Positions 14,063 to 38,883 of a stretch of 64,000 nt of DNA are shown here, piece by piece; the stretch's first letter is position 1, and the number at the start of each line of letters is the position of its first letter. The position numbers and the translations under genes were made by a program. This stretch comes from Halovivax limisalsi (GTDB taxonomy: Archaea > Halobacteriota > Halobacteria > Halobacteriales > Natrialbaceae): assembly GCF_023093535.1 (NCBI RefSeq), contig NZ_CP095757.1, positions 1,116,001 through 1,180,000 on the forward strand, given 5' to 3'. The notes beneath the pieces are model-generated. The model did not search any database and was not told where the DNA came from. It saw only the letters and a program-made list of their open reading frames with translations.

Positions 14063-15231
14063 TGGCCCGCGGGACGTCAGCCGCTACTGCCGACGACGCA
14101 GACGATACTACCGACGCCGACGACGTGACCGCCGATGCCGACGCCGCCGGGGCCGCGGGTACTGACGACGCGGCCGCCGAGACGGTCACCGCGAGCGTCG
14201 TCGGCGCCAGCGGCTTCGCCGGCGGCGAACTCCTGCGTCTGCTCGCCGGCCATCCCAACTTCGACATCCAGCAGGCGACGAGTCGCGGAAACGCCGGCAA
14301 GAGCGTCGGTTCGACCCACCCGCCGCTTCGCGGGACCGAGCTACGCTACACCGATCCGACGGAGCTGGAGTCGGTGGACGTGCTCTTCGCCGCGACGCCC
14401 CACGGCGTCTCGATGGGCCGCATCGACGAGTTCTTCGAGGTCGCCGACACGGTGGTCGACCTCTCGGCGGACTTCCGCCTCGATTCCGAGCCACAGTACG
14501 ACGAGTGGTACGACGGCCACGACGCGCCCGAGTACCTCGAAGCGGCCGAGTACGCCCTGCCCGAACTCAACCGCGAGAACCTGCCGGGCGCCGACCTGAT
14601 CGCGAGCGGCGGCTGTAACGCGACCGCGACGATCCTCGGGCTCTATCCGCTGTTCGAGCACGGGATTCTCGGCGACGATGACGCCGACGGCGACGAGCGG
14701 ATCGTCGTCGACGTCAAGGTCGGCTCCTCGGAGGGCGGCGCCGGCGGCGGCGCGGCATCGAGTCACGCCGAGCGCTCGGGCGTCGTCCGCCCCTACGCGC
14801 CGACGGGCCACCGCCACGAGGCCGAGATCGAACAGTGGCTCGGAACCTCGGTCTCGTTCACCTGCCACGCGGTGGACATGGTTCGCGGCGCGAGCGCGAC
14901 GAGCCACGTCTTCCCGGACGGCCCCGTCTCGAAGGGCGACCTGTGGTCGGCCTACCGCGCGTGCTACGAGGACGAACCGTTCGTCCGCCTCGCCGCGGGC
15001 GGCTCGGGCGTCTACCGCTACCCCGAGCCCAAAGCCGTCGCGGGGACGAACGTCGCGGAGGTCGGCTTCGAACTCGACCCGTCGAACGAGCGCGTCGTCG
15101 TCTTCGCCGCGATCGACAACGTGATGAAGGGCTCGGCCGGCCAGGCCGTCCACGCGGCCAACGTCGCGCTCGGCTACGCGGAGACGGCCGGCCTCGAGTT
15201 CGCGGGCTTGCACCCGGTGGGATCGCCATGA
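14062..15231 (+). CDS. argC: [LysW]-glutamyl-phosphate reductase ArgC
   Basis: A 389-residue NADPH-dependent reductase turning LysW-gamma-glutamyl phosphate into the semialdehyde. The Rossmann motif VVGASGFAGGELLRLL starts near residue 48. The catalytic Cys is in SGGCNATATILGLYP, the LysW-type version of the GCYPT block, and the active-site His is in the TGHRHEAEIE region. The first 45 residues are an Ala/Asp/Thr run with no counterpart in the core family. The start overlaps the argX stop by 1 nt and the stop overlaps argB by 4 nt. Confidence 0.94.
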   Translation: MARGTSAATADDADDTTDADDVTADADAAGAAGTDDAAAETVTASVVGASGFAGGELLRLLAGHPNFDIQQATSRGNAGKSVGSTHPPLRGTELRYTDPTELESVDVLFAATPHGVSMGRIDEFFEVADTVVDLSADFRLDSEPQYDEWYDGHDAPEYLEAAEYALPELNRENLPGADLIASGGCNATATILGLYPLFEHGILGDDDADGDERIVVDVKVGSSEGGAGGGAASSHAERSGVVRPYAPTGHRHEAEIEQWLGTSVSFTCHAVDMVRGASATSHVFPDGPVSKGDLWSAYRACYEDEPFVRLAAGGSGVYRYPEPKAVAGTNVAEVGFELDPSNERVVVFAAIDNVMKGSAGQAVHAANVALGYAETAGLEFAGLHPVGSP

Positions 15232-16247
15232 CCGCCGCGGAGACGCTGACGACGAACGAGACGCCGGTCGTGATCAAGATCGGCGGTGCCAGCGCGGTCG
15301 ATCCCGCGGGCGCGCTCGCCGACGTCGCCCACCTGTCGGCCAACGGCCGCCCCGTCGCGGTCGTCCACGGCGGTTCGACCGCCGTCGACGAGACGCTCGA
15401 GGCCCTCGGCGAGGAGCCGACCTACGTCGAGACGCCCGGCGGCGTCGTCGGCCGCTTCACCGACGAGACGGCGATGGAGGCGTTCACGATGGCGATGGCA
15501 GGGACGGTAAACACCGACCTCGTCGAGGCGCTGCAGAACGAGGGCGTCGACGCGATCGGCCTGACCGGCCTCGACGGCAAGCTGCTCGCCGGCACCCGAA
15601 AGTCGGCCGTCAGAGTGCTCGAGGACGGCACGAAGAAGATCAAACGCGGCGACCACTCCGGGACGGTCGAGTCGGTCAACGCCGACCTGCTGGAGACGCT
15701 CCAGGCTGGGGGGTACGTCCCCGTCGTCGGCGGCCCGGTCCTCGGCGCCGAGTCCGACGGCGGCTACACGGCCGTCAACGCGGACGCCGACCGCGCGGCC
15801 GCGGCGGTCGCGGGCGCGCTCGGAGCCGACCTCGTCGTGCTGACCGACGTCGCCGGGGTCTACGCGGATCCCGAGGACGAGTCGACGCTGATCGAGTCGG
15901 CGACGACCGAAGCCGAATTCCAAGCGCTCGAAGACGCCGCGGCGGGCTTCATGACGAAGAAGGTGATGGCGGCCCGGGAGGCCCTCGAGGGTGGCGCGTC
16001 GTCGGTCGTCGTCGCCGACGCGAACGCGAACGACCCGGTCCTCACCGCGCTCGACGGGGCGGGGACGACGATCACGCCCGGGGCGGTCGGACTGACGACT
16101 GCCGCCGACGGCTTCGAGGCCGCGACTGGCGGGCCCGGGACCGCTACCGACGGACCCGGGGACGGCGTCACCGACGATGCCGACGGGCTCGAGGCCGGCG
16201 CCACCGACGACGCAGTCGACGACGAAGTCGAGGTGAGCGAGTCGTGA
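15228..16247 (+). CDS. argB: [LysW]-glutamate kinase ArgB
   Basis: A 339-residue amino-acid kinase phosphorylating the side-chain carboxyl of LysW-bound glutamate. The start ATG lies in the ATGA overlap with argC. Seen: VIKIGGASAVDP (phosphate loop), VVHGGSTAVDE, and the nucleotide-binding region VVLTDVAGVYADPED. The kinase core ends near residue 285. The last 50 residues are a Gly/Asp/Glu-rich acidic tail. The next gene overlaps by 4 nt. Confidence 0.93.
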   Translation: MTAAETLTTNETPVVIKIGGASAVDPAGALADVAHLSANGRPVAVVHGGSTAVDETLEALGEEPTYVETPGGVVGRFTDETAMEAFTMAMAGTVNTDLVEALQNEGVDAIGLTGLDGKLLAGTRKSAVRVLEDGTKKIKRGDHSGTVESVNADLLETLQAGGYVPVVGGPVLGAESDGGYTAVNADADRAAAAVAGALGADLVVLTDVAGVYADPEDESTLIESATTEAEFQALEDAAAGFMTKKVMAAREALEGGASSVVVADANANDPVLTALDGAGTTITPGAVGLTTAADGFEAATGGPGTATDGPGDGVTDDADGLEAGATDDAVDDEVEVSES

Positions 16248-17401
16248 GCGGCTTCGTCTTCTCGCAAAAACCGGTCACGATCGAGTCGGGCGACGGCGTC
16301 ACGCTGACGGCCGACGACGGCACCGAGTACCTCGACGTCGGCGCGAGCTACGCGTGCACGCCCGCCGGTCACTGCCACCCCGACGTGGTCGGCGCGATCC
16401 GGGAACAGGCGAGCGAGCTGCTCTACGTGCAGGGGTCGTACCCGGTCGAGACGCGCTCGACCCTCAGGGCCCAGCTCGCCGCGCTCGCGCCGGGAGAGAT
16501 CGAGAACGTCTGGCTCTGCAACTCGGGCACCGAGGCCAACGAGGCGGCCCTGAAGTTCGCCCGCAGCGCGACCGACGGCACGAAGATCGTCGCCGCGCGC
16601 GGCGCCTTCCACGGCCGTACCGCCGGCGCCCTCTCGGCGACCTGGAAGCCGAAGTACAAGGCGCCGTACGAACCCCTGCTCGAGGACCACGTCGAGTTCG
16701 TCCCCTACGGCGACGAGGCGGCGCTCGAGGCGGCCGTCGACGACGAGACGGCCGCGGTCATCCTCGAGCCGATCCAGGGTGAGGGCGGCGTCAATCCGGC
16801 GCCCGCGGGCTACCTGCGGGCCGCCCGCGAGGTGACCAGCGAGACCGGCTCGGCGCTGATCTTCGACGAGATCCAGACCGGCCTCGGTCGCACGGGCTCG
16901 TTCTGGGCCTGCGAGAACGACGCGCTCGTCGACGCGCCGGTCGTCCCCGACGTACTGACGACGGCGAAGGGCCTCGCGAGCGGACTCCCGCTCGGCGCGA
17001 CGCTCTGTGCGGACTGGATCGCCGAGGGCGCCGCCTCGCACGGGTCGACGTTCTCCGGGAACCCCCTGGTCGCCGCGGCGGCGACGGCGACCCTCGACGT
17101 CATCGTCGACGAGGATCTCGCGGCCAACGCGGCGGCCGTCGGGGAGACGCTCGTCGACGAACTCGAGACGGCCGACCTGCCGATCGACGGCGTCCGCGCG
17201 GCGGGCCTCATGGTCGGCCTCGAGGTCGGTCGCGGGGCGAACCGCGTCCTGCGCGACCTCGCGCTGGAGCACGAGATCCTCGCGCTGCCCGCCGGGCGCA
17301 CGGTCGTCCGCCTGTTGCCGCCGCTAACGATCGACGAATCGCACGCGCACGCCGTCGTCGACGCGCTCGAAGGCACCCTGGAGGACCCCGCCGAATCATG
17401 A
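16244..17401 (+). CDS. argD: [LysW]-glutamate semialdehyde aminotransferase ArgD
   Basis: A 385-residue class III aminotransferase that makes LysW-bound ornithine. The PLP lysine is in LTTAKGLASGLPLGA; IFDEIQTGLGRTG carries the Asp contacting the PLP nitrogen, and CNSGTEANEAALK binds the phosphate. The start is GTG 16244 overlapping the argB stop. The length is typical. There is no long acidic tail, unlike its neighbours. Confidence 0.94.
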   Translation: MSGFVFSQKPVTIESGDGVTLTADDGTEYLDVGASYACTPAGHCHPDVVGAIREQASELLYVQGSYPVETRSTLRAQLAALAPGEIENVWLCNSGTEANEAALKFARSATDGTKIVAARGAFHGRTAGALSATWKPKYKAPYEPLLEDHVEFVPYGDEAALEAAVDDETAAVILEPIQGEGGVNPAPAGYLRAAREVTSETGSALIFDEIQTGLGRTGSFWACENDALVDAPVVPDVLTTAKGLASGLPLGATLCADWIAEGAASHGSTFSGNPLVAAAATATLDVIVDEDLAANAAAVGETLVDELETADLPIDGVRAAGLMVGLEVGRGANRVLRDLALEHEILALPAGRTVVRLLPPLTIDESHAHAVVDALEGTLEDPAES

Positions 17402-31630: not shown

Positions 31631-32866
31631 TCACTCGCCGAACAGGCTGCTGTGGACGGGCGCGGAGTGACGCTCGGGTTCGGTCTCGGTCCTGTCGTCG
31701 ACGTCCGAGACGGCGCGGCCGGCGACGCCGTCCGCGAGGAAGTCCCCGAGCGGCGGGTTGACGTGTTCGGGTTCGACGAGGAACGCGTCGTGGCCGTGCG
31801 TGGAGTCGACGACGTGGTGGGCGACGGGCGTGTCCGTCTCCCGAAAGCCCGCGGCCAGCTGGGCGGATTGCTCGACGGTGAAGTGCCAGTCGGCCTCGAA
31901 GCTCATCACGAGCGCCTCGCCGTCGAAGGCGGCGAGCGCGTCGGCGACGGAGTCGTGGCCCGCCGCCAGGTCGTAGTCGTCCATCGCGCGCGTGAGGAGG
32001 CAGTAGCTGTTGGCGTCGAAGCGCTCGACGAACGTCCGCGCGTTGTAATCGAGGTAGGACTCGACGTCGCGGTAGGGAAAGAAGTCCGCGGCGGGGTCCG
32101 GCGGGAAGCGCTTCTCGCTGGCCTCGCGCCCCGCCGACCGGCGGCCGAACTTCTCGCTCATCGATTCCTTCGAGAGGTACATGATGTGGCCGAGCTGGCG
32201 GGCGATCGCGAGGCCGTCGTCGGGATCCGGCCGGTCGTCGCCGTAGTAGTCGCCCCCGTTCCAGGCGGGATCGGTGGTGATCGCCCGGCGAGCGATGGCG
32301 TCGATCGCGAGACACTGCGCGTCGAGGCGCGCCGCGGCGGCGATCGGCGCGACCAGGTCGACGTCGTCGGGGTACCGGCGAACCCACTCCAGGGCGTTCA
32401 TCCCGCCCACCGAGCCGCCGACGACGGCGCGGACGCGCCCCACCCCGAGCTCGTCGAGGAGTCGACGCTGGGCGCGCGTCCAGTCGCCGACCGTCACCGG
32501 CGGGAAGTCGCTCCCGTAGGGTTCGCCCGTCTCCGGGTTCCTACTCGCCGGGCCGGTCGTGCCGTAACACGAGCCGGGGACGTTCGCGCAGACGACGAAG
32601 TACTCCGTCGTGTCGACGGCTTTGCCCGGGCCCACGGTGTCGCCCCACCAGGCGCGGGCCTGGCCGGCGGTCGACTGGCCCGCCGACCCTCGATCGCCAT
32701 CGCCTCGCCTGCGGGCCACGTGCGCGCTCCCGGTGAGCGCGTGACAGACCAGGACCGCGTTCTCACCGGTGAACTCCCCGTAGGTCTCGTAGGCGACCTC
32801 GAGCGAGGGGATGGACTCGCCGCACTCGAACGTGAACGCGCCGAGGTCGACCGTTTCGGCGCTCAC
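31631..32866 (-). CDS. metX: Homoserine O-acetyltransferase
   Basis: An alpha/beta-hydrolase-fold enzyme activating homoserine for methionine synthesis. Seen: the nucleophile elbow [14 protein letters not shown], the oxyanion/N-terminal block [11 protein letters not shown], and the late His in [10 protein letters not shown]. The start is taken as GTG 32866 ([17 protein letters not shown], 411 aa). The frame is open to ATG 33055 (474 aa), but that ATG lies upstream of the start point predicted from the box A at 33068-33075 and the extension is unlike a halophilic protein. A 59-codon frame (33042-32863) overlaps this GTG. Confidence 0.88.
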
Positions 32867-33042
32867 GACGGCCACCCCGCCGTCGGCCCCGGCCTCTCCA
32901 TCGACCGACCGTTCCGTCCCGTTCGGTACCCTGACTCCGGTGTCGCGGCCGCTGGTTTCCCTCGCGGTCGCCGTCCCCCCGCCGCCGAACTCGCTCCTGC
33001 AAGGATCCGCTCCTGCACGTCCGAGGCGCTCCGGCGTGTCAT
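32863..33042 (-). other. Possible upstream ORF coupled to metX
   Basis: ATG 33042 falls about where transcription from the metX box A (33068-33075) should start, so it would be a leaderless start. The 59-codon frame (begins [16 protein letters not shown]) ends in TGA overlapping the GTG of metX as GTGA, the arrangement used for translational coupling. The composition is Arg/Gly/Pro-rich and not obviously coding, so this may be chance. Confidence 0.3.
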
Positions 33043-33067
33043 GTATGCTGTGCATATAACCGTATAG

Positions 33068-33169: not shown

Positions 33170-33859
33170 TTACGACTCGGGAAACACGGCCGGATCCAGT
33201 GCGGTTCTGACCGCGTCGGGAACGCCGTCCGGTGGATCCGCGGGGATCGGCGGGAGGGTCCAGACCGGCCGGTCCGTCATCGACTCGAGGACTCCCGGGT
33301 TCGTCCGTTCGGCGGCGTCCGCGCCTTCGTACTCGTTCAGGACGATCCCGTGGACTGCGATGCCGCGCCGTTCGAGCGCCTCGACGGAGAGGGCGGTGTG
33401 GTTGAGCGTCCCCAGTCCCGACCGGGCGACGACGAGCGTCGGGAGGTCCAGATCGGCGACCAGATCGACGACCTCCCGGTCGCCCGCGAGCGGGACCCGA
33501 AGGCCGCCGATTCCCTCGACGACGCCGACAGACGCCGCGGCGAGTCCGTCGCGACAGCCGTCCAGCAGCCGCTCGTAGTCGATCTCAACGTCGACCTCTC
33601 GGGCGGCAACGGCGGGCGCCAGCGCCGGTTCGAGTCGCCGGAGGCAGGTCGCCGCCTCGTCCGCCCCGCAGGCGTCGGCGACGAAGCCGGCGTCGTCGTC
33701 CGGCGGATACCCCGTCTGGCAGGGTTTGACCGCCCGCGCGTCGACGCCGTCGGCCCGGAGCCAGCCGACGAGGCCGGCGGTCACGACCGTCTTCCCGACG
33801 CCGGTGTCGGTGCCGACCACCGCGAAATCCGTCCCCGAGGACGGTGCCCGGACGGTCAC
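33170..33859 (-). CDS. bioD: Dethiobiotin synthetase
   Basis: A 229-residue P-loop enzyme closing the ureido ring of dethiobiotin with CO2 and ATP. Seen: FAVVGTDTGVGKTVVTAGL (Walker A), KPCQTGYPPDDDAGF, VEGIGGLRVPLAGD, and GIVLNEYEG. The start is GTG 33859, overlapping the bioF stop by 4 nt. It is the last gene of the bioB-bioU-bioF-bioD operon. Confidence 0.92.
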   Translation of the reverse strand: MTVRAPSSGTDFAVVGTDTGVGKTVVTAGLVGWLRADGVDARAVKPCQTGYPPDDDAGFVADACGADEAATCLRRLEPALAPAVAAREVDVEIDYERLLDGCRDGLAAASVGVVEGIGGLRVPLAGDREVVDLVADLDLPTLVVARSGLGTLNHTALSVEALERRGIAVHGIVLNEYEGADAAERTNPGVLESMTDRPVWTLPPIPADPPDGVPDAVRTALDPAVFPES

Positions 33860-35070
33860 AGCAGTCCCACCTCCCTGCCGGCCGCCTCGAACGCGTCGAG
33901 ACAGGCCCGGATCTCCGCGTCTGTGTGGGTGGCCGTCGGCGTCACGCGGATGCGGCTGGTCCCGTCGGGTACCGTCGGCGGTCGAATCGGCGTGGCGACG
34001 ACGTCGCGCTCCCGGAGGCGCTCGCCCAGTTCGAGGGCAACGCGGCGGTCGCCGACGACGACGGGGAGGATCTGGGTTTGGCCCCACACCTCGTAACCCA
34101 TCGCCTCCAGGCCGTCCCTGAGCGTCTCGACGTGGGCCCACAGCCGTGCGGTCCGCTCGCCCTCCCGGGCGATCCGAAGGGCCTCGCGAGCGGCCGCGGC
34201 GGCCGGCGGCGCCAGCCCCGTCGAGAAGACGAACGACCGCGCCGCGTTGAGCAGGTACTCGACGAGCGTCTCGTCGCCGGCGACGTAGCCGCCCTGGCTG
34301 GCCAGCGCCTTCGACAGCGTCCCCAACTGGATCTCCACGCGGTCGGTCAGCCCCTCGCGCTGGACGATCCCGCCGCCGTCGCCGAAGACGCCGGTCGCGT
34401 GGGCCTCGTCGACCATCACCCACGCGCCGAACGCGTCGGCGACGGCGCAGAGCTCCGCGAGCGGCGCCACGTCGCCGTCCATCGAGAACACCGTGTCGGT
34501 GACGACCAGCCAGGCTTCGTCGTCGCTGCCGGCGCGCTCCCGGGCGGCCATTCGATCGCGCAGGTCGTCGGGATCGCAGTGGTCGTAGACGACCGTCGCC
34601 GCGTCGGCCAGCCGGCAGCCGTCGATGATGCTCGCGTGGTTCAATTCGTCCGAGAAGATGACGTCGGGCGACAGCGCCGCGATGGTGCCGACGTTGGCGG
34701 CGTAGCCCGAGGAGAACACCAGCGCGCGATCCGCGCGCTTGCACGCGGCGAGGTCGCGTTCCAGCCCGCGGTGCAGTCCCGTATCACCCGTGATGAGGCG
34801 GGAGGCGCCGGCGCCGGTGCCGACGCTGACGCCGCGTTCGGCGGCCCGACGGACGCGATCGTCGGTCGCCAGCCCGAGGTAATTGTTCGACGCGAAGACG
34901 AGGCGCTCCGTCTCGAACGTCGGCGCCGACCCCTTCGGATCCTCGGCGAAGCGCGCCCGCGCCTCGACCGTCGCCGCGGGATCGAGCTGGCGACGCAGAT
35001 TCGCGCGCTCGCGCTCGCGGAGCCGCCGGTCGAGGTCGAAGCCGCGGCCGGTCGTAGCGTCGTCGGCCAT
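33856..35070 (-). CDS. bioF: 8-amino-7-oxononanoate synthase
   Basis: A 404-residue alpha-oxoamine synthase condensing pimeloyl thioester with alanine. The PLP lysine is in TLSKALASQGGYVAG; DEAHATGVFG carries the Asp to the PLP nitrogen, and SNNYLGLA is the N-terminal signature. It begins at ATG 35070, overlapping the upstream gene's stop (ATGA). The DHCDPDDL and FSTGLAPP blocks are normal for BioF rather than Kbl, and context supports BioF. Confidence 0.93.
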   Translation of the reverse strand: MADDATTGRGFDLDRRLRERERANLRRQLDPAATVEARARFAEDPKGSAPTFETERLVFASNNYLGLATDDRVRRAAERGVSVGTGAGASRLITGDTGLHRGLERDLAACKRADRALVFSSGYAANVGTIAALSPDVIFSDELNHASIIDGCRLADAATVVYDHCDPDDLRDRMAARERAGSDDEAWLVVTDTVFSMDGDVAPLAELCAVADAFGAWVMVDEAHATGVFGDGGGIVQREGLTDRVEIQLGTLSKALASQGGYVAGDETLVEYLLNAARSFVFSTGLAPPAAAAAREALRIAREGERTARLWAHVETLRDGLEAMGYEVWGQTQILPVVVGDRRVALELGERLRERDVVATPIRPPTVPDGTSRIRVTPTATHTDAEIRACLDAFEAAGREVGLL

Positions 35071-36170
35071 CAGAACCCGGGCATCAGTTCCGCCGGCCCG
35101 AAGACGCCGTAGTCGCCGGCGCGGTTGCGCCGCACCGCGGCGTTCACGTAGCCGAGCGCAGGTCCGTTGACGTTCGCCTCCATGCTCGTCGCGTCGTCGA
35201 GCTGGAACGTGTTCGTCCCCCGCTCGCCGTCGAAGGTCCGGCCCGTGACCCGGACCGTCGTCGTGACCGGCTTCTCGTCCGAACGGACGTCGAGCACCCC
35301 GCCGACGGTGACGTCCTCGGCGTCGCAGATCCCCGCTCGTTCGAGCAGGACGTCGTCGGCGTGCTCCATGTCGTGGAACTCCAGGACGCCGTCGTGCTCG
35401 TCGACGAGCGCCTCGATCTCGGCCTCGCTCATCTCGCGGGCCGTCTCCACGTCGTAGCCGTCCAGGTGGGCGATGTCCTCGCGGACGGTGCCCCGGTTGT
35501 CCTCGTAGCCGGACTTGAGCCCGACGCCCCACCAGATATCGACCGATTCGACCTCGACGAACGATTGGGCGGCGAGGGCGGCCGCACCCGTGAGAAAGCC
35601 CGGCGTCGCACCCGCCCCGCAGACGAAGGTGATGCCGGCGTCGATCAGCGTCTCCTCGCGATCGTCGAGCATGCCGATGACCCGCGAGCGCTTGAGGACG
35701 TCGACGAGCACGCCCTCGTAGTCGGCCGCGGCGAAGCGCTCCGCGACGCGCGGGATGAAGTCGTGCTCCAGGTTCGGCAGCGCCAGCAGGACGGCGTCGA
35801 TCCCGTCGCTCTCGGCGATGACGTCGTCGATCGGCGTCTCCGTCGGCTCGCCCTGGCTGGAGGCGACGATTCCGGCGTCGTCGCCGGTCTGTTTGACGCC
35901 GCCGGCAGCGTCGTCGGCGGCGGATACCCCGCCGCCGTCCGTCGACGCACCGCCGTCGGTCTCGACGTCGGTATCGTCAGTCGGACCGCTCGCGATGTTC
36001 CCTTCGGTCGCCGCCAGGAGCTCCTCGACCGCGAGCCCGTCGTGATCGACGGCGACTCCGTTGCGGTCGCAGGCCGCGACCGGCGTCAGGCCGTCCTTGT
36101 ACTGTGCGACCTCGAGCGTTCGTCTGCCGATACCACCCGTTCCGAGTACGGCGAAGCGTGTGTCGTCCAT
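35070..36170 (-). CDS. bioU: Rossmann-fold oxidoreductase, BioU-like, in place of BioA
   Basis: A 366-residue NAD(P)-binding protein (VLGTGGIGRRTLEVAQ at residue 7) of the group often labelled saccharopine-dehydrogenase-like. It lies between bioB and bioF and overlaps bioF by ATGA. No bioA occurs in the operon, so the step from 8-amino-7-oxononanoate to 7,8-diaminononanoate needs an enzyme; BioU, known from cyanobacteria and with archaeal homologs, does this using its own lysine as amino donor. K160/S162 in DVLKRSR are candidate positions, unproven. Residues 61-112 are a low-complexity Gly/Asp/Thr insertion. Confidence 0.7.
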   Translation of the reverse strand: MDDTRFAVLGTGGIGRRTLEVAQYKDGLTPVAACDRNGVAVDHDGLAVEELLAATEGNIASGPTDDTDVETDGGASTDGGGVSAADDAAGGVKQTGDDAGIVASSQGEPTETPIDDVIAESDGIDAVLLALPNLEHDFIPRVAERFAAADYEGVLVDVLKRSRVIGMLDDREETLIDAGITFVCGAGATPGFLTGAAALAAQSFVEVESVDIWWGVGLKSGYEDNRGTVREDIAHLDGYDVETAREMSEAEIEALVDEHDGVLEFHDMEHADDVLLERAGICDAEDVTVGGVLDVRSDEKPVTTTVRVTGRTFDGERGTNTFQLDDATSMEANVNGPALGYVNAAVRRNRAGDYGVFGPAELMPGF

Positions 36171-36246
36171 CGTCTCTCGTGTCCGTCGATTTCGTGGTCG
36201 TCGATGTTGTAGCGGTTCTGTCGGTCGGCTTCCAGCGTGTCTCGAC

Positions 36247-37395
36247 TCAATCGTCGTCGGCGTCGGCGATGCTCGTCGCCGTCCCGACGGCCGTCTCGAC
36301 GCGTTCGGGGGTTCCGTCTTCGATGCGTTCGGGATCGTCGGCCTCGGCGCGCGCTTTGACCGACTCCGGATCGAACTCGTTGACCGCGGTGTTCGGTGCC
36401 AGCCCCGACCGCTCGATCACCTCGATGTCATCGCCGGGCGACTGGCCCGACGTGGTGAGGTAGTCGCCGACGAGGATACCGTCGGCGCCGGCCTCGAAGG
36501 GCAGGTGCTGCTCGTCCCGTTCGAGGTTGACCTCTCGCCCGCCAGTCAGGCGCACCCGCGCCTCGGGATGTAGCAGTCGGTAGACCGCGATGGTCGAGAG
36601 GAGTTCCTCGGTCGTGATCGGCGGCGAGTCGCCGAAGCGCTCGCCGAGCGGCGTCCCCGCGACGGGGTTCAGGACGTTGACCGGCAGCGAGGAGATCCCG
36701 ATCTCCTGCAGCGCGATCGCCGCGTCGATCCGGTCGGTCGGCGCCTCGCCCATGCCCAGGATGACGCCCGCACAGAGGTCCATGCCGACGTCCTTGGCCC
36801 GTTCGAGCGTCTTCACGCGGTCCTCGAAGCGGTGCGTGTCGACGATCTCGGGGAAGTACCGCGGGGAGGTCTCGATGTTGTGATTGTAGTGGTTGATCCC
36901 CTCCGCGGCCAGGATCTCCGCCTCTTCGCGCGTGAGGATGCCGAGGCTCGCGTCGACCTCGACGTCGGTCTCGTCGCGAACCAGCCGGATCGCCCTGATG
37001 ACGTCGTCCCACTCGTCGGGACGCCGGTCCTTCGAGACGCCCTTCTCCGCGACGACGATGCCGAATCGCTGGGCGCCGTCGCGCTCGGCCCGTTTCGCCG
37101 CGGCGAGGATCTCCTCGGGATCCAGGAAGCCGTAGGTGTCGATCCCGGTGTCGAAGTGGACCGACTGCGCGCAGAAGCCGCAGTCCTCGGCGCAGTTGCC
37201 GGCCTTCGCGTTGACGATCGAGCAGGCGTCGACGGTGCCGTCGCCGAAGTGCGCCCGGACGGCGTCGGCCGCCGGCGCGAGGTCTGAAAGCGGCTGGGCG
37301 ATCAGCGCCAGGCCGTCGCGTCGATCGAGCCGCTCGCCGGCCAGGACGCGTTCGACCGCCTCGTCGACCGTCCGGTTTCCAGTCTCGTAAACCAC
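36247..37395 (-). CDS. bioB: Biotin synthase (radical SAM)
   Basis: A 382-residue enzyme inserting sulfur into dethiobiotin. The radical-SAM cluster Cys are C68, C72 and C75 (NCAEDCGFCAQS). Other blocks are NHYNHNIETSPRYF, CAGVILGMGE and LPVNVLNPVAGTPL. The start is GTG 37395, with box A ACTAATTAGT about 28 nt upstream, so it is likely leaderless. About 45 acidic residues extend past the normal end. It is the first gene of the biotin operon, controlled by the operator overlapping its first codons. Confidence 0.94.
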   Translation of the reverse strand: MVYETGNRTVDEAVERVLAGERLDRRDGLALIAQPLSDLAPAADAVRAHFGDGTVDACSIVNAKAGNCAEDCGFCAQSVHFDTGIDTYGFLDPEEILAAAKRAERDGAQRFGIVVAEKGVSKDRRPDEWDDVIRAIRLVRDETDVEVDASLGILTREEAEILAAEGINHYNHNIETSPRYFPEIVDTHRFEDRVKTLERAKDVGMDLCAGVILGMGEAPTDRIDAAIALQEIGISSLPVNVLNPVAGTPLGERFGDSPPITTEELLSTIAVYRLLHPEARVRLTGGREVNLERDEQHLPFEAGADGILVGDYLTTSGQSPGDDIEVIERSGLAPNTAVNEFDPESVKARAEADDPERIEDGTPERVETAVGTATSIADADDD

Positions 37396-37416
37396 AGATG
37401 ACTGGTCGGTTGACGA
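37385..37416. promoter_or_regulatory. BirA-type biotin operator at the bioB start
   Basis: TCGTAAACC-N14-GGTTGACGA matches the known bacterial/archaeal BirA box (TTGTAAACC-N14 to 16-GGTTTACAA) in sequence, symmetry and spacing. It covers the bioB start codon and lies immediately downstream of box A (about 37418-37427, itself a perfect ACTAATTAGT palindrome), a classic repressor position. Confidence 0.8.
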
Positions 37417-37497: not shown

Positions 37498-38883
37498 TTA
37501 CGTGCGTGACGAAGCCGACGTCGCCCGATCGATCGCGCGTTCGAAGTCCGCGAGCAGGTCGGCCGGATCCTCCAGCCCGACGGAGACGCGAACGAGATCG
37601 GCCGAGACGCCGGCGTTCTCCCGCTCCTCGGGGGTGAGCTGGCCGTGGGTCGTACTCGCCGGGTGGATGACGAGCGTCTTCGCGTCGCCGACGTTCGCCA
37701 GGAAGGAGGCGAGTTCGACCGACTCGCAAAAGCGCTTGCCGGCCTCGAACGCCGTTGGACCGGTTTCAGTGCCGCCTCCTCCACCTCGGTCACCACTGCC
37801 ACCGTCCGCGCCGGCCAGACCGAACGCGAGCATCCCGCCGTAGTCGTCCAGGTACCGCGTCGCGTTCTCGTGCGTCGCGTGGCTCTCCAAGCCGGGGTAG
37901 GCGACCCAGGCCACGTCCGGGTGGTCGGCCAGGTAGTCGGCGAGGACGGCGGCGTTCTCGCAGTGGCGCTCCATCCGGAGCGGAAGGGTTTCGAGCCCCT
38001 GGGCGGTTTGCCAGGCGTCGAACGGCGACTGGCCGTTCCCGAGGCTGCGAACCGAGCGAAAACGCGCCGCGGCGGCGAAGGGAGCGTCGGCGAAGTCCCG
38101 ACCGAAATCGACGTCGGCGTACGCCGGGTTCTCGCCGGCGAGTTCCGGGTAACGATCGGGGTACTCGTTCCAGGGGAAACTCCCGCCGTCGATGACGACG
38201 CCGCCGATCGTCGTCCCGTGGCCGTGAATCCACTTCGTCGTCGAGGACCAGACGACGTCCGCGCCGTGTTCGAGCGGTCGACAGAGCGCCGGCGTGGCGA
38301 ACGTGTTGTCGACGACCAGCGGGACGCCCCGATCGTGGGCGATCGCGGCGAGTTCTTCGAAGTCCGGTGTGACGAGCGAGGGGTTGCCGACGGTCTCGAC
38401 GTGGACGAACGCCGTGTCCGCGTCGATCGCCTCGGCGTAGGAGTCGGGTTCGAGCGTCGGGACGAACCGGGCCTCGATGCCCCGGCGCGACGCCGTCGAG
38501 CGGAAGTACGCGGTCGTGCCGCCGTAGGTGTCGCTCGAGACGACGACGTTGTCGCCGTGTTCGGCCAGCGGGAGCGTGATGGCGTCGAGCGCTGCCATGC
38601 CGCTGCCGGTCGCGACGGCGCCCGCGCCGCCGGCGAGGCCGGCCAGTCGGTCTTCGAGCGCCCGGACGGTCGGGTTGCTGATCCGCGAGTAGATGTGGTC
38701 CTCGCGCTCGAGGGCGTACCGCGCGGCGGCGTCGGCCGCGTCGTCGAACGTGTAGGAGGTCGTCTGGTAGAGCGGCAGCGCCGCGGCGCCCGTGTTCGAA
38801 TCGCCGTCGTACCCCCCGTGAACGCTCCGCGTGGCCAGTCCTGGACCGCCAGTCTCCCCGCGCGTTCCGTCGGCGTCGGTCAT
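37498..38883 (-). CDS. metY: O-acetylhomoserine sulfhydrylase (aminocarboxypropyltransferase)
   Basis: A 461-residue Cys/Met-metabolism PLP enzyme using O-acetylhomoserine from MetX. The PLP lysine is in WSSTTKWIHGHGTTIGG; ATGSGMAALDAI and SSDTYGGT bind the cofactor. A Gly-rich insertion (GGSGDRGGGGGTETG) lies about 100 residues from the C-terminus, where other members have a short loop. It is separated from metX by the biotin operon on the same strand. Box A CATAAATG (about 38908-38915) places the start close to ATG 38883. Confidence 0.92.
   Translation of the reverse strand: MTDADGTRGETGGPGLATRSVHGGYDGDSNTGAAALPLYQTTSYTFDDAADAAARYALEREDHIYSRISNPTVRALEDRLAGLAGGAGAVATGSGMAALDAITLPLAEHGDNVVVSSDTYGGTTAYFRSTASRRGIEARFVPTLEPDSYAEAIDADTAFVHVETVGNPSLVTPDFEELAAIAHDRGVPLVVDNTFATPALCRPLEHGADVVWSSTTKWIHGHGTTIGGVVIDGGSFPWNEYPDRYPELAGENPAYADVDFGRDFADAPFAAAARFRSVRSLGNGQSPFDAWQTAQGLETLPLRMERHCENAAVLADYLADHPDVAWVAYPGLESHATHENATRYLDDYGGMLAFGLAGADGGSGDRGGGGGTETGPTAFEAGKRFCESVELASFLANVGDAKTLVIHPASTTHGQLTPEERENAGVSADLVRVSVGLEDPADLLADFERAIDRATSASSRT

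Follow-up and report, generated by a model that had tools for sequence, protein, structure and literature searches.

A BioU ortholog in the place of BioA in the biotin operon of Halovivax limisalsi and other haloarchaea

How do haloarchaea that carry bioB, bioF and bioD make biotin without bioA? In a 2018 survey of the 31 species of Halobacteria in KEGG, bioF was found in 18, bioD in 14, bioB in 19 and bioA in 0, and possible bio gene clusters were named for Methanococcales and Thaumarchaeota only (PMC6138646). Biotin prototrophy is reported for Natronomonas pharaonis, and auxotrophy, together with a BioYMN transporter, for Natrialba magadii (PMC3403918). The same question is raised by the window analysed here (the whole stretch of 64,000 nucleotides from Halovivax limisalsi, contig NZ_CP095757.1, positions 1,116,001 to 1,180,000), in which an oxidoreductase gene lies among the biotin genes. 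We estimate at about 0.9 the probability that this operon makes biotin via BioU, which replaces BioA, with repression by BirA as a probable part of the scheme.

The second gene of the biotin operon

Four genes were identified on the minus strand, in the order bioB-bioU-bioF-bioD:

36247..37395, minus strand: bioB, biotin synthase, 382 aa, GTG start (TIGR00433, 338.5 bits, cut-off 225; Radical_SAM and BATS)
35070..36170, minus strand: bioU, 8-amino-7-oxononanoate carboxylating dehydrogenase, BioU ortholog, 366 aa (NF047886; PDB Slr0355; Foldseek 6k37)
33856..35070, minus strand: bioF, 8-amino-7-oxononanoate synthase, 404 aa (TIGR00858, 411 bits, cut-off 426)
33170..33859, minus strand: bioD, dethiobiotin synthase, 229 aa, GTG start (TIGR00347, 111 bits, cut-off 83.3)

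TIGR00858 is the top match of bioF among all families, with a score slightly below the cut-off. The initial annotation had described these four genes as one biotin unit without bioA, and all four are indeed present, although the interval given for the unit (35070-37395) spans bioB and bioU only and leaves bioF and bioD outside. A 4-nt overlap, proposed for the last three genes, exists between bioF and bioD (GTGA), but the bioU stop and the bioF start share a single nucleotide (TGATG). The gap between bioB and bioU is 76 nt. The bioB-bioU-bioF-bioD synteny recurs in haloarchaeal loci, named records included. Genes for metX and metY (window 31631-33055, 37498-38883) flank the operon. The same flanking genes occur in a congener (G030, L190), and another genome (G029, L191) shows metY, bioB, bioD and metX.

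The oxidoreductase gene encodes BioU, as judged from its sequence and fold, from both active-site residues, from its place in the operon and from the class-wide pattern in which it accompanies BioD while BioA is missing. The protein matches NCBIfam family NF047886 (E 1.2e-98, 330 bits), and its sole match in a PDB sequence search (phmmer) is Slr0355, the BioU of Synechocystis (E 4e-82), with ~49% identity across 264 aa. The equivalog cut-off of NF047886 (600 bits) is not reached by this or any other haloarchaeal copy seen. It appears to be drawn around cyanobacteria, and is an annotation threshold rather than a functional feature. An AlphaFold2 model, built from an alignment of 44 relatives, has a mean pLDDT of 81. 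With this model Foldseek places the five BioU crystal structures on top (TM (target) 0.94, rmsd 1.6-1.7 A, E ~1e-38), followed by a tier of D-amino-acid and meso-diaminopimelate dehydrogenases (TM ~0.5, E ~1e-10). The BioU-like identity proposed in the initial annotation is therefore upheld by family, identity and fold. We also looked for the combination of a bioA gene in the genome and no match to the BioU fold, and neither half of it occurred.

Shared with BioU of Synechocystis sp. PCC 6803 (Slr0355; PDB 6ir4, 6itd, 6k36, 6k37, 6k38) are the fold, the Rossmann glycine motif, the sacrificial lysine, His233 and about half of the residues over 264 aa, and both proteins stand in for BioA. Residues G10, G12, G13, G15 and D35 of the Rossmann NAD(P)-binding motif are invariant in the 44-sequence alignment. 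Unlike the haloarchaeal gene, which sits in a bioBUFD operon, the cyanobacterial gene lacks bioB, bioF and bioD in the fetched flanks of 79 of the 80 loci closest to Synechocystis, the set to which our cyanobacterial comparison refers. Haloarchaeal BioU also form a clade of their own, split from cyanobacterial BioU by one fully supported branch in a midpoint-rooted tree, which gives no direction or age of transfer between the domains. A further difference from the Synechocystis protein is a variable disordered linker in most haloarchaeal copies:

35883..35990, minus strand: low-complexity disordered linker of bioU, residues 61-96 (pLDDT < 50; length varies in relatives)

This is the 50-residue low-complexity insertion that had been called unusual. 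The insertion is real, but it is common in haloarchaea: between the same alignment columns the interval is 52 residues long in the window protein; haloarchaeal BioU have 13-89 residues there (median 39) and cyanobacterial BioU have 12-13. Three divergent haloarchaeal BioU (L038, L040, L043), the shortest at 332-335 aa, cluster together in the tree, apart from the other haloarchaea.

BioU, BioD and the absence of BioA across haloarchaea

The expectation that BioA is missing and that the oxidoreductase occupies its place agrees with a search of the genome (99% complete), in which no BioA was found above the cut-off, the best match scoring 216 of 405 bits, and bioU lies beside bioB, bioF and bioD. 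Five proteins match BioA below threshold (one of acetylornithine/LysJ type, one diaminobutyrate, two ornithine-like and HemL). These are more readily accounted for as other class-III aminotransferases. The ArgD/LysJ-type aminotransferase is encoded within a 757-codon open frame of the window (about 15128-17398; L001:364-2634). Its first 376 residues have no Pfam match and probably represent merely an unbroken reading frame upstream.

Distribution among genomes gives the best functional evidence for BioU. BioA (SAM:AON aminotransferase, TIGR00508) would act at the same pathway step as BioU, but it is a PLP aminotransferase with an unrelated fold. Using curated profile cut-offs, we identified BioA above its cut-off in 0 of 392 haloarchaeal genomes sampled across the class, and in all six control genomes. 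In the same sample, BioU is encoded in 150 genomes, BioD in 151 and BioB in 177, and BioU and BioD occur together in 150. The sole BioD genome without BioU (G294) is an exception because its assembly breaks the operon: bioD and a truncated bioF lie where contigs end. One genome that seemed to have BioU without BioB (G058) was rejected as such, since bioB is present in two pieces. The Fisher value for the association of BioU and BioD is 2e-110, which is descriptive only, as species are not independent. The replacement of BioA by BioU appears to hold across biotin-making haloarchaea. In the sample, no BioU was found in the same phylum outside the class Halobacteria.

A bioB gene without bioU occurs in 28 of the 392 genomes, and all 28 also lack bioD. 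In those inspected (L193-L212) bioB stands alone or, rarely, with bioF, an arrangement that suggests salvage of a late precursor; such genomes probably reflect either this salvage or decay. Some species of Halovivax, and of several other genera of its family, lack bioU and bioD jointly. One genome (G297) has two BioU genes (L161, L173): a bioBUFD operon holds one of them, and the other is paired with bioB, with neither bioF nor bioD nearby. The bioBUFD cassette is also found on plasmids of Haloferax, Natronococcus, Natrinema and Haladaptatus (L219, L220, L227, L228), a location that suggests horizontal spread among haloarchaea.

Two other identities for the second gene were considered. Public records of haloarchaeal relatives, those on plasmids among them, name the product 'transcriptional regulator' or else 'hypothetical protein', and the former would make it a regulator of the biotin operon. 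Pfam detects no DNA-binding domain in the window protein, however, and the fold is that of a dehydrogenase. Fold and family rule this identity out, leaving it scarcely any probability, and we regard the public naming of the gene as a misannotation. It is also very improbable that a generic oxidoreductase, such as a meso-DAP or L-amino-acid dehydrogenase, lies in the operon by chance and that a class-III aminotransferase does the work of BioA. The second tier of Foldseek matches and the five sub-threshold aminotransferases are what this reading could draw on, but the E values separate the BioU structures from the next family by a wide interval, the five aminotransferases score better to other families than to BioA, and the presence and absence of BioU and BioD are nearly identical over the 392 genomes.

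The gap left by the 2018 survey, in which Halobacteria had bioB, bioF and bioD without bioA, is explained by BioU, because BioU matches BioD class-wide. In Haloferax mediterranei, HFX_5076 is bioD, HFX_5077 is bioF and HFX_5079 is bioB (PMC10779274). We infer that HFX_5078, between bioF and bioB, is the expected BioU. A literature search for archaeal BioU and for HFX_5078 returned nothing; Sakaki et al. (2020), which lay beyond its reach, may list haloarchaeal homologs. The kind of enzyme and its mechanism are already known from cyanobacteria, and the present finding places the enzyme across a class of a second domain of life.

Active-site residues and the proposed reaction

Two residues of the window protein align with the active site of Synechocystis BioU:

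35691..35693, minus strand: codon of K160, which aligns with the sacrificial Lys124 (K124A chains 6itd and 6k37, compared with 6ir4)
35361..35363, minus strand: codon of H270, which aligns with His233 (H233A chain 6k38)

The mutants were taken from the PDB titles (6itd and 6k37 as K124A, 6k38 as H233A). In the alignment the K160 column holds alanine in both K124A chains and lysine in 6ir4, and the H270 column holds alanine in the H233A chain. The initial annotation had named K160 and S162 as candidates for the catalytic site. Alignment to Synechocystis BioU places K160 opposite Lys124, in favor of the former, whereas position 162 is serine in all haloarchaea and threonine in all cyanobacteria examined. 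Neither K160 nor H270 varies among the 44 aligned sequences. The lysine is kept in all 153 distinct BioU proteins (90 haloarchaeal, including that of the window, and 63 cyanobacterial), in 188 of 188 intact BioU loci, and also in four named plasmid copies (Haloferax larsenii, Natronococcus occultus, Natrinema thermotolerans and Haladaptatus). Neither serine nor any other substitution was found at this site in any BioU gene fetched. At the level of sequence this settles that nothing points to a lysine-free version of BioU in haloarchaea that would use a free donor. Conservation of the lysine is expected of any ortholog, and by itself is no proof of a suicide mechanism.

BioU carries out the NAD(P)H-dependent conjugation of 8-amino-7-oxononanoate (AON) to its lysine amine; the conjugate is then carboxylated, and the carbamate of diaminononanoate (DAN) is released in an NAD(P)+-driven step that leaves the lysine irreversibly changed (PMC12915131). 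The same scheme is the best explanation for archaeal BioU because the fold, the lysine and the histidine are conserved, although the reaction steps and the single turnover are carried over from the cyanobacterial enzyme. In Halovivax, biotin would be made from a pimeloyl thioester, which BioF would convert to AON. In BioA's stead, the K160 amine of BioU would condense with AON, with reduction by NAD(P)H. Carboxylation of the AON-K160 conjugate and NAD(P)+-dependent oxidation would then free the DAN carbamate. This would leave BioU without its lysine amine and limit each protein to one turnover. BioD would close the ring and BioB would insert sulphur. BioW was not found in the genome, and no BioC scored above the cut-off, with generic methyltransferase scores only; in Synechocystis, BioC and BioH are reported to be missing too (PMC7133116).

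Archaeal BioU could instead be a multi-turnover enzyme, with K160 serving transiently alongside a free amine donor or with re-amination of the spent allysine form. At several positions haloarchaea and cyanobacteria have each fixed a different residue (S162 versus T, R163 versus S, C184 versus T, A186 versus C), some of them close to the lysine and to the GxGATPG loop, so the chemistry could have shifted. We nonetheless consider multiple turnover unlikely, as the lysine and histidine are unvarying in both groups, no haloarchaeal copy does without the lysine, and the operon holds no conserved gene that is a candidate for regenerating the enzyme. The class-wide match of BioU with BioD moves many Halobacteria to the likely biotin makers. 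Under the preferred reading, in which each BioU acts once, a suicide biosynthetic enzyme would now span two domains of life. Genetically tractable Haloferax would then be hosts for studying how cells can afford to spend one protein on each vitamin molecule.

A putative BirA-box-like operator at bioB

The bacterial BirA box has the consensus TTGTAAACC-N14/15-GGTTTACAA. A BirA box is said to have been reported for some archaea by Rodionov and colleagues in 2002. We identified a similar site at the start of the operon:

37387..37414, minus strand: BirA-box-like inverted repeat GTCAACC-N14-GGTTTAC, the right half of which overlaps the bioB start codon (GTG GTT TAC)

Only two sites of this pattern occur in the 3.9 Mb genome, and a reversed-pattern control gave 0. 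The second site (G000:C1:2859783-2859810; L225:1501-1528) is upstream of a gene for a bioY-like membrane protein, which is followed by a gene for an ABC ATPase. By eye, the membrane protein sequence is read as BioY (NCBIfam gave no family hit), and the ATPase gene is consistent with bioM. Also encoded is a BirA (G000:C1:2326644-2327354) with HTH_11 and BPL domains, which scores under the TIGR00122 cut-off (58.7 bits versus 70).

Across haloarchaea, the strict pattern is present in 57 of 74 BioU-linked bioB promoters and in 13 of 21 other bioB loci, and in none of the shuffled sequences. Each of these 70 matches has a spacer of exactly 14, although 12-17 was permitted. The inverted repeat (GTNAAC..GGTTTAC), a BirA with an N-terminal HTH, and operator-like sites at both a bio operon and a bioY-like gene are shared with the bacterial BirA (Group II biotin protein ligase) system. 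By analogy with bacteria, the biotin operon is probably repressed by BirA at this putative operator, and BirA bound to the palindrome over the bioB start would probably act when biotin is high.

In contrast to the bacterial system, the haloarchaeal operator overlaps the bioB start codon, and because of this the first BioB codons read M-V-Y-E. With the right half-site lying within these codons, the operator and the N-terminus of the protein constrain each other across haloarchaea. The same operator is carried by many of the bioB loci in genomes that lack bioU and bioD.
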